Below, one piece after another: positions 3,120 through 6,149 of a DNA stretch of 6,157 nucleotides. The stretch's first letter is position 1. Each line of letters starts with the position of its first letter. The stretch comes from Parcubacteria group bacterium GW2011_GWB1_44_7 (GTDB taxonomy: Bacteria; Patescibacteria; Paceibacteria; UBA9973; DSPV01), in the NCBI GenBank assembly GCA_000999175.1, contig LCJJ01000035.1, positions 1 to 6,157 of the forward strand. Reading direction: 5' to 3'. A program made the translations under genes and the position numbers. Below the pieces are notes generated by a model. That model had not been told where the DNA came from, did no database searches, and saw only the letters and a list, made by a program, of their open reading frames with translations.

Positions 3120-3164
3120 GCATATCGTGTTTAACGATGTCGAACATCGTTAAACACGATATGC
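3120..3164. repeat. Perfect 21-bp palindrome with a 3-nt loop
   Basis: Positions 3120-3140 are the exact reverse complement of 3144-3164, separated by CGA. A second small inverted repeat (TGCGA, AAA, TCGCA at 3162-3174) overlaps its right end. There is no T-run on either side, so it is not a standard terminator. It sits upstream of the tRNA-fMet gene and downstream of the tRNA-Met terminator, where no protein gene is visible. The role is unknown; candidates are a cruciform or RNA-processing site, a protein-binding palindrome, or a mobile palindromic unit. Confidence 0.75.
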
Positions 3165-4526: not shown

Positions 4527-6149
4527 ATGAAAGTTTTGCACAAATCTGAAATTTTATTTTTTCTGTTGTTGGCTTTTTCAGGAGGAATTTTTATGGCGTC
4601 TTTTGTGCCCGTTTCATATAGTTTTATTTTGGTTTTAATAATTATAAGCATCGGAATTATTGGCATTTCGGCATATCACAAAACATTTTCCCGCGCCGGA
4701 ATTTTGACTGGAGCTCTTTTATTAGTTTTTGCGCTGGGAATCGTCAGGTTTAATTATGTCAGTTTATCAAAAAATATTTTGAGTCAATTTAGCGACATTG
4801 AGGCTGGCGGCCCGCTTCGCCACGGTTTGGGTGAGGCAAGCAGGGGAGTGGCGGTTATTTTGAAAGGATATGTTGACGATGAGACGGTTTATCAAAACGG
4901 CAGGGCGCAGTTTGTTTTTAGGGTGAAACAAATTATCGTGCCGGATAAAATTATTGAAGTTGATGAACGAACCCAGATTTTCGCCAATGTTTTTCCGAAA
5001 TATCAATACGGAGATTTTTTGGAGATAAACGGCGCGCTCAAGACCCCGCAAAATTTTGATCCCGTACGAAGCAGGGGCACGCTGCGAGCCCTCGCGGCTT
5101 CGTACGGGATTGATTATGTAAATTATTTAAAGAAAGAGGGCGTAGCAACGACGATGTCTTTTCCGAAGATTAAAACAAGCAAGACCGCCGGATTGGGGTT
5201 GTTTGAGAAAATGAAGCTTGGTTTTTATAAAAAAATATTTATCGTTAAGGATAAATTTGAATTGGCGGTGAGTCGTTCTCTGGCCGAGCCGAACGCATCG
5301 TTTATAAACGGCATTTTACTGGGAAGCCGGCAGGAAATCCCTGACAAACTGAAAGAGGCGTTCAATAAAACCGGCACTTCGCATATTCTCGCCGTTTCCG
5401 GATATAACATCACCATAATCGCCGAAGCGGTTCTGTGGGCGCTGGTTTGGTTTTTTAAAAGGCGAAAAGCGTTCTGGCTCTCGGCGGGGTTGATTATTTT
5501 GTTTTCCGTTTTGACCGGCGCTTCGGCCTCGGTGGTGAGGGCGGCAATAATGGGGCTCTTGCTGTTGTTCGCTTCCGGCTACGGGCGCTTGTCCGACGCG
5601 AAAAATTCAATTGTTCTCGCCGGCGCGGCAATGGTATTTTTAAGCCCGATGATTCTGGTTTTTGACGTCGGTTTTCAGCTGTCATTTATGGCGGTGCTGG
5701 GGCTGGCTTATGTTTATCCGCTGTTAAATTATAAAACGGAAAAAATTTCAAAAATTGCCGGCCAGATTGGAGAATTTGTTAAGAGTTTGAAAGAAATTAT
5801 TTTGATGACCTTGTCGGCGCAATTTTTTGTATTCCCGTTGCTCATCTATTATTTTAAAAATTTGTCTTTGGTGTCGGTTGTCGCCAATGTTTTGGTTTTG
5901 CCTTTTGTTCCGGCGGCGATGCTGCTTGGATTTTTGTCTGGTTTGGCGGGGATAATTTTTGTTCCTCTCGGTCGTATTGTCGGTTTCGCGGCATGGGCGA
6001 TTACGGCGTATCAAATTAAAGTAATAGAATTTTTCGCGTCTCTGCCGTTTGCCTCGGTGGCGGTTTCTTTCACCTCGGTGACGCTTATCATAATTTATCC
6101 GATATTGTTTTTCGGATTGTGGCGGATGAAAAAGAGAATTCTTTTGTAA
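4527..6149 (+). CDS. comEC: ComEC/Rec2 family DNA-uptake channel protein
   Basis: ComEC forms the inner-membrane channel that passes single-stranded DNA into the cell during natural transformation. This 540-residue protein has N-terminal helices (about 8-75), an OB-like soluble segment (about 88-215: VILKGYVDDE, RAQFVFRVK, YGDFLEING), then the competence domain. Landmarks are NGILLGSR (261-268), HILAVSGYNI (286-295, family HLLAVSGLH), GASASVVRAA (331-340) and DVGFQLSF (380-387), followed by multiple helices to the end. The C-terminal metallo-beta-lactamase domain of full-length ComEC (about 750 residues) is absent; it could be a separate gene beyond the window edge. ATG 4527 fits the hydrophobic N-terminus; there is no Shine-Dalgarno motif and the promoter predicts a leaderless message. 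Residues 179-196 are encoded by an inserted palindromic element and are not part of the family fold; residues about 94-107 may be a second insertion. The reading frame is intact. Confidence 0.92.
   Translation: MKVLHKSEILFFLLLAFSGGIFMASFVPVSYSFILVLIIISIGIIGISAYHKTFSRAGILTGALLLVFALGIVRFNYVSLSKNILSQFSDIEAGGPLRHGLGEASRGVAVILKGYVDDETVYQNGRAQFVFRVKQIIVPDKIIEVDERTQIFANVFPKYQYGDFLEINGALKTPQNFDPVRSRGTLRALAASYGIDYVNYLKKEGVATTMSFPKIKTSKTAGLGLFEKMKLGFYKKIFIVKDKFELAVSRSLAEPNASFINGILLGSRQEIPDKLKEAFNKTGTSHILAVSGYNITIIAEAVLWALVWFFKRRKAFWLSAGLIILFSVLTGASASVVRAAIMGLLLLFASGYGRLSDAKNSIVLAGAAMVFLSPMILVFDVGFQLSFMAVLGLAYVYPLLNYKTEKISKIAGQIGEFVKSLKEIILMTLSAQFFVFPLLIYYFKNLSLVSVVANVLVLPFVPAAMLLGFLSGLAGIIFVPLGRIVGFAAWAITAYQIKVIEFFASLPFASVAVSFTSVTLIIIYPILFFGLWRMKKRILL
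4799..4853. repeat. Possible second inserted repeat unit in comEC
   Basis: A TGAGGC direct repeat (4799-4804, 4832-4837) is 33 bp apart, exactly 11 codons, and surrounds an imperfect hairpin GCTT..GCC / GGT..AAGC. AAGCAGGGG (4838-4846) also occurs in the palindromic insertion at 5069-5077, in the same codon frame (Ser-Arg-Gly). The segment encodes a low-complexity stretch GGPLRHGLGEASRG between the membrane helices and the OB-like domain. The insertion interpretation is tentative. Confidence 0.35.
5056..5114. mobile_element. 49-bp palindromic element inserted in frame in comEC, with a TTGAT target duplication
   Basis: The element (5061-5109) lies between two copies of TTGAT (5056-5060, 5110-5114). 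Its ends are perfectly inverted (5059-5072 with 5097-5110, 14 bp, partly overlapping the duplication), with an inner AGGG/CCCT pair (5073-5076, 5089-5092). Element plus one duplication is 54 bp, exactly 18 codons. Deleting it joins QNFD to YVNYLKKEGV, restoring the FDYxxYLxxxG motif usual in ComEC. It is too short to encode a transposase, so it would be mobilised in trans, like a MITE or REP-like unit. Confidence 0.7.

Follow-up and report, generated by a model that had tools for sequence, protein, structure and literature searches.

A palindromic element lies in frame in comEC

The window, the 6,157-nucleotide stretch of Ca. Yanofskybacteria DNA analysed here, carries comEC on its forward strand at 4527-6149, a frame of 540 amino acids with DUF4131 and Competence domains (Pfam PF13567 and PF03772). 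Within comEC, positions 5060-5109 form a 50-bp palindrome (TCCCG...CGGGA) flanked by TTGA on the left (5056-5059) and on the right (5110-5113), a 4-bp target duplication of the form YNNR whose limits follow from the sequence and from the duplication rule obtained from other copies. We designate this mobile unit type A (T-CCCGTACGAAGC...GCTTCGTACGGG-A); neither it nor its parts are assigned a strand. The left arm, CCCGTACGAAGC, occupies 5061-5072 and the right arm, GCTTCGTACGGG, 5097-5108; both are supported by an inverted-repeat search and by the covariation of arms between copies of the CCCG palindrome family. The original prediction described exact inverted ends and exact direct repeats, and both were recovered: the search returned fully complementary 14-nt arms at 5059-5072 and 5097-5110, and TTGAT stands at 5056-5060 and again at 5110-5114, with 49 bp separating the two. 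Its claim of an in-frame insertion was likewise confirmed, the comEC frame running across the element without a stop and gaining 18 residues. The encoded peptide, PVRSRGTLRALAASYG, is placed between NFD and IDYV of ComEC. Folded as single-stranded DNA, the palindrome reaches -21.4 kcal/mol, compared with -10.7 (sd 2.24) for shuffled sequences (z -4.8), and none of 200 shuffles was as good. Elsewhere in the window, at about 1094-2872, a frame that we take to be TypA/BipA-like is broken by an in-frame TAA near 2291.

The ComEC linker receives several kinds of insert

The window comEC shares 98% identity with its counterpart in MGJJ01000016.1 (L001), a Ca. Yanofskybacteria assembly whose genome carries the unit again elsewhere. 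In a 32-row alignment the insert is common to the window and P0001 (98%) and missing from P0002 (84%) and P0003 (80%); in the comparison that the original prediction had proposed, the 18 residues are lacking in comEC orthologues and the flanks are conserved. Among the 116 of 120 relatives in which we located the site by pattern, 11 carry CCCG-family protein inserts there. Type A is found in one orientation in P0001 and in the opposite orientation in P0072 and P0083, and a longer type ending in RTSNGID in P0004, P0006, P0007, P0031, P0045, P0052, P0063 and P0074; a second insert, of type A (PERDREGSQRAPISYG), lies further upstream in P0007. Because 11 relatives bear CCCG-family inserts of several types at this place, we regard the linker as a permissive hot spot. 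Short inserts of other kinds (SAEGGSASGG, TPSTSSGRADF, GPSAGSGQAEF and similar) are present at the same linker in P0030, P0058, P0059, P0073, P0076, P0080, P0100 and P0111. The window comEC also has a second lineage-restricted in-frame insert at about 4813-4845 (PLRHGLGEASR), with roughly inverted ends; variants of it are found in P0002, P0003 and P0007, and it is absent from P0004-P0006 and P0008-P0010.

It had further been claimed that removing the element restores a conserved segment of comEC. Among 55 comEC places compared with the window, two fit a clean empty site (NFDDFDYV type) exactly, both of them distant (L027 and L028; upstream identity 26-27%), but 28 are longer than it by 9 nt, so that excision does not regain the sequence of these relatives. 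P0072 retains the extra residues. Since so many places have 9 nt more and only two distant ones fit, the window site is not a simple pair of empty and filled states.

The element belongs to a dispersed family with a 4-bp target duplication

A generic family pattern (CCCGWWMGARN{23,53}YTCKWWCGGG) was found in 26 of the 45 order genomes and in 32 of the 379 phylum genomes, compared with 0 and 2, respectively, for the reversed pattern used as a control. The closest genome, G001, and the next-closest, G002, hold many palindrome copies with several interiors; the second copies whose existence the original prediction had made decisive are thus present both in the same genome and in related ones. We collected 99 distinct copies including the window, 97 of them with flanks; most units are about 47-118 bp long.

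The junctions define the ends precisely. An exact 4-bp duplication flanks 61 of the 97 copies, all 61 being YNNR, compared with 0-2 at eight shifted offsets. Fifty-one junctions have 6-mers that match at 5 or all 6 positions, compared with 0-3 at eight other offsets, and our first reading was accordingly a 6-bp duplication. We rejected it after considering the copies with a 4-bp core matching at no fewer than 3 of 4 positions, 72 of the 97: their outermost positions agree little above chance (0.56 compared with 0.45 expected), and the bases adjoining CCCG and CGGG are complementary in 72 of 72 (TA 55, CG 15, AT 2). Because these inner bases always pair and the outer ones are near chance, the duplication is 4 bp long and the element reads YCCCG...CGGGR. 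The target-site duplication originally proposed in the window therefore stands, but as TTGA rather than TTGAT, and the element measures 50 bp. No target consensus was seen outside the hexamer RYNNRY in a set of copies selected for matching junctions.

The arms covary. Varying columns pair in 93-100% of copies with no stem filter applied, compared with shuffled maxima of 62-81%; one column (A or T after CCCG) is at the level of random pairing, and the stem filter used when copies were collected had removed just 1 of 98. It is thus the palindrome, and not one particular sequence, that is maintained. Many dispersed copies with terminal inverted repeats and a duplication of fixed length are two of the features of a MITE, and the family has both.

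An unbiased scan for an inverted repeat with a 6-bp duplication (L001-L028 and three more loci) gave 30 matches, compared with 18-26 in four controls, and hence no general inverted-repeat signal; CCCG units were conspicuous among the 30. Viral contigs searched with two exact element patterns contained no copy. Several individual structures were also recorded. At L170:3999-4178 a 60-bp element with ATGCGT/ATGCGC ends is nested within a longer one bordered by ATCCAT. A Kerfeldbacteria genome has a composite palindrome with the same CCCG-family ends and a TTCA duplication (L047:8658-8868), and L063:3731-4027 is a 297-bp unit with TCCCGTTAGAGA-type ends and a TGAA duplication. The window itself contains two inverted repeats with short loops outside the CCCG family, 21-bp perfect at 3120-3164 and 25-bp near-perfect at 929-979.

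Copies inside genes preserve the reading frame

Gene calling with a Markov model was too weak for this question (6 of 99 copies in frame), and we instead assigned in-gene status by homology of both flanks against all fetched DNA. The resulting set of 29 leaves out the window copy, L213 (a low-complexity match) and L007 (intergenic). Lengths are multiples of three in 28 of the 29, compared with 55 of 69 other copies (p=0.036), and the one that departs from this rule, L215 at 67 bp, seems to lie at the 3' end of a gene. None of these 28 contains an in-frame stop. Codon phase 0 accounts for 23 of 29 copies (a set that counts L213 and not L215), compared with 45-48% for RYNNRY hexamers in long ORFs (p=0.0002-0.001).

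Genes with copies in frame include secA, ruvB, alaS, aspS, recO, obgE, pnp and nrdJ. NCBIfam names eight hosts, namely pnp, secA, recO, a cysteine desulfurase (which scores below the exact NCBIfam cut-offs), obgE, a B12-dependent ribonucleotide reductase, aspS and ruvB; alaS was identified by our own reading of the sequence, outside NCBIfam naming. Clean empty orthologues, in which the insert and one duplication are missing (net -6), exist for secA, alaS, recO and obgE among others. In ruvB, two genomes with upstream protein flanks 98.7% identical carry different element types at exactly the same site (L189:1501-1572 and L212:1501-1548), and in secA different types occupy exactly the same target in more distant genomes (L122:10814-10861 and L228:2501-2569). 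This turnover in ruvB and secA looks as if interiors had been exchanged in place.

The variable comEC linker and the several unrelated short inserts that relatives hold there might suggest an ordinary diverged ComEC loop with a chance palindrome, a reading that the repeated copies and the empty sites rule out for practical purposes, as the same DNA unit lies in unrelated genes with exact junctions. The suggestion that the element in the window is one of several palindromes that invade protein genes in a reduced genome is borne out by the copies across genomes, the in-frame genes and the clean empty sites. As judged by comparison of sequences, the palindromes are mobile, duplicate their target, are maintained as palindromes and preserve the frames that they enter.

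From the preserved frame we infer that the ribosome reads the insert as a short hydrophilic peptide, for example PERSREGSQRASASYG or the peptide of the window. Alternatively, the insert might go untranslated, through removal from the RNA or because the ribosome hops the hairpin between the duplicated codons. Ribosome hopping is known from gene 60 of phage T4 and from mitochondrial byps, the hairpin is strong, and the prevalence of codon phase 0 among the duplications would make the codons of take-off and landing resemble each other. However, hopping would permit stops and frameshifts, and the lengths in multiples of three and the lack of in-frame stops are what is expected of inserts that are read; we consider this alternative very unlikely.

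Some GIY-YIG genes are bounded by the same arms

The first lead to an enzyme, which the window alone could not reveal, came from two units in G002, 231-239 bp long, with palindrome arms, exact TTCA duplications and interiors that are broken GIY-YIG genes. A GIY-YIG nuclease of about 88 amino acids is the sole product encoded by units of about 280 bp that share the palindrome arms. The GIY-YIG domain is present in 45 of 45 genomes of the order, with 222 matches in total. We examined 70 GIY-YIG loci, 30 returned as loci and 40 from genomes rich in GIY-YIG genes or elements, which makes them other than a random sample; 27 of the 70 have tight inverted repeats (score at least 13), compared with 2 of 584 random places. 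Five of the 27 have palindrome-family arms, and a sixth such locus, L366, scores 12. An ORF was recovered at 62 of the 70 loci. YhbQ-like genes, a group defined post hoc by our own motif, lie within inverted repeats in 0 of 16 cases, compared with 24 of 46 for other GIY-YIG genes, a count that includes L339 and L366, admitted by hand at scores of 11-12. When we sought a duplication over eight end positions, 9 of the 31 listed units matched at 4 of 4 positions; two of the nine, L343 and L360, were then dropped because their match falls inside the arms. Units with quite different arms show YNNR duplications (TTGA twice, TGGA, CGTG and CATA).

The proteins of the six units with CCCGnnnGA arms are close relatives of one another, most of them ending in LTG or RTG, with part encoded by the right arm; in five of the six the stop TGA follows the arm immediately, and five of the six are exactly 280 bp. 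By global alignment the units are 64-93% identical, compared with 43-60% for their 60-bp flanks, and these six insertions have no conserved homing site in common. The catalytic domain PF01541 scores 59.9 and 62.8 bits (profile positions 1-70 and 1-71 of 78). The nearest solved relatives are UPF0213 proteins (1zg2 and 1ywl) and, weakly, an SLX1 homologue (7wme, E 0.009). SLX1 is a structure-specific nuclease, so even this weak relationship would fit recognition of a hairpin. An arm hairpin reads TCCCGTTAGAGCCA...TGGCTCTAACGGGA, and the GIY-YIG unit of G009 has the same unpaired arm position as 35 of 97 palindromes. At L366 (G040:C27), three arm-bearing GIY-YIG units lie within 3 kb in long open frames, and the frame of one of them continues into a pilin-like stretch (LPLTG-FTLIEVLIYSA).

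Arms track close relatives of one nuclease

In a search of the order with the L359 protein, 17 of the 19 matches listed at at least 59% identity have both arms, three of the 17 being the G040 units in L366. Of the other two, L390/L440 shows one arm before its contig runs out, and L388 lacks arms altogether and carries an in-frame stop. L439, at 58% identity, has arms. Below 55%, 16 loci were fetched and 13 were evaluable, of which one, a truncated G002 unit, has arms. The sample of the phylum gave a similar division, with arms in 13 of 14 fetched at at least 58% and in 2 of 15 below; the phylum member L409, at 72%, is without arms. These cut-offs (59%, 58% and the E value of 1e-27 used below) were set after viewing the lists. 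Exact duplications flank 7 of the 17 order units, each TTCA/TGAA (G028, G017, G036 with two, G011, G009 and G030), and 3 of 15 arm-bearing phylum units.

Nuclease and palindromes also occur together. Palindromes are present in 12 of 13 order genomes with a close nuclease relative (E at most 1e-27) compared with 14 of 32 others (p=0.003), and in 15 of 33 phylum genomes with a relative (E 1e-22) compared with 17 of 346 (p=9e-10), p values that are inflated by shared ancestry and drawn from partial assemblies. Both phylum searches covered 379 genomes and the second brought in no new genome labels, and we therefore treated them as one set. The total number of GIY-YIG genes correlates weakly with palindromes (Spearman 0.38, p=0.01). 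No GIY-YIG unit with palindrome arms was found in the partial assembly of G001, the genome nearest to the window, and no close GIY-YIG relative in the partial assemblies of copy-rich genomes such as G041 and G008.

A GIY-YIG nuclease is the candidate mobiliser

We conclude, with a probability of about 0.7, that the palindrome unit is a non-autonomous, MITE-like element of Patescibacteria whose candidate mobiliser is a GIY-YIG nuclease. To judge from the shared termini and duplication, the enzyme that moves the palindromes is probably the nuclease of about 88 amino acids encoded by the elements of about 280 bp.

Terminal inverted repeats with a target duplication of fixed length are typical of DDE elements, and both the palindromes and the GIY-YIG units could instead be passengers of a transposase, DDE or other, with specificity for these ends. 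In favour of this alternative, some element-rich genomes have no close GIY-YIG relative, and GIY-YIG is not an integrase. Yet of the two families profiled, DDE_Tnp_1 occurs in just 3 of 45 order genomes and rve in 15 of 45, being absent from G001 and G041, and on these grounds we rejected an IS/DDE parent. When family ends lying 200-4000 bp from each other were paired over 2.7 Mb, 13 matches resulted, namely the two G002 GIY-YIG units, the L047 composite palindrome, the 297-bp unit of L063 and, for the rest, neighbouring separate elements or repeats of one place. Moreover, the YNNR duplication also accompanies GIY-YIG genes whose arms are quite different. We therefore hold a transposase with GIY-YIG passengers to be unlikely, at perhaps one chance in a handful.

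Far less probable is a system of the RAYT/REP kind, in which a Y1 (IS200-like) transposase would move the hairpins as single strands. Y1 enzymes act on hairpins, and Y1_Tnp occurs in 24 of 45 order genomes, but six element-bearing genomes (G020, G028, G014, G024, G022 and G041) have no Y1 match, and the fixed duplication is not what IS200/REP transposition would lead one to expect.

Under the nuclease model, the GIY-YIG enzyme would recognise or cut extruded hairpin arms at the base of the hairpin and open a YNNR target with a stagger of 4 nt. Joining of the hairpin unit at the break, followed by filling of the gaps through host repair, would leave the 4-bp duplication. The element inserts at YNNR sites; copies in genes survive when length and duplication together preserve the frame, and the ribosome would read the insert as a short hydrophilic stretch, of 18 residues in comEC. 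The short palindromes may be relatives or derivatives that have kept the arms and not the gene. We know of no strand-transfer activity for a bare GIY-YIG domain. Against simple insertion stand the comEC site of the window, 9 nt off most uninserted relatives, and the differing element types at the same comEC, ruvB and secA sites.

Relation to known systems

To our knowledge, protein-invading palindromes are best known from Rickettsia, and we know of no mobiliser described there. The likeness to Rickettsia palindromic elements (RPEs) suggested at the outset is upheld by in-frame insertion into unrelated protein genes. RPEs, in the account of them given in PMC10969869, are about 150 bp long and described in Rickettsia species; compared by description, they too are families of short palindromic repeats in a reduced genome, enter unrelated genes without shifting the frame and add a peptide each time, and they are a precedent for protein-invading palindromes. 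The present elements differ in size (mostly about 47-118 bp), in their host (Patescibacteria), in the 4-bp YNNR duplication and in having a candidate nuclease-encoding parent. With MITEs, as outlined in the same paper, the palindromes have in common that they are non-autonomous, carry terminal inverted repeats and a target duplication and share their ends with a coding element, here the GIY-YIG units, which also share the duplication; unlike the parents of MITEs, the presumed parent would encode a GIY-YIG nuclease and no transposase, in only about 280 bp.

Small GIY-YIG genes have also been reported as insertions in rRNA genes of the same broad bacterial group, the CPR. According to PMC11270868, these ORFs belong to neither intron group and seemingly lie outside a context of spread by homing, given their low incidence and the low conservation of their insertion sites. 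Because of that context, the report would fit our model. The units described here differ in having defined ends, a 4-bp duplication and non-coding relatives; the terms 'palindrom' and 'inverted repeat' have no occurrences in the main text of PMC11270868. In open-licence PMC papers we recognised no description of palindromic elements in Patescibacteria or of GIY-YIG units with inverted repeats.

REP/BIME sequences with RAYT are likewise short repeats that form hairpins and that a small enzyme may move. The palindromes resemble them in both respects, but have no link to Y1, carry a duplication and often lie inside genes.

Taken more broadly, the GIY-YIG units have diverse arms (CCCGTTAGAG, CCCCGCACC, CACTCACACC, GGTAGT and others) and a 4-bp YNNR duplication wherever one is readable. 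We think it fairly probable that they represent a class of transposon that encodes, in about 280 bp, a single-domain GIY-YIG nuclease of about 88 residues as its sole enzyme, and that drives swarms of palindromes of 50-120 bp which enter essential genes in frame across Patescibacteria. If so, they would be among the smallest autonomous mobile elements and would transpose by cut and repair without a classical transposase. Many small patescibacterial GIY-YIG genes would then be explained, and perhaps also the GIY-YIG inserts in rRNA genes of this group. The palindromes make Patescibacteria a second, unrelated reduced lineage with protein-invading palindromes, here with a sharply defined rule of insertion, empty sites that are clean and an enzyme open to testing. 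Such a minimal system could be used to ask how a bare nuclease moves DNA and how inserts of about 17-26 residues are accommodated by core genes such as secA, ruvB and alaS. Another GIY-YIG subfamily, with GGTAGT-type inverted ends, occurs at L323, L349, L360 and L363 in four genomes and is probably a parallel family.
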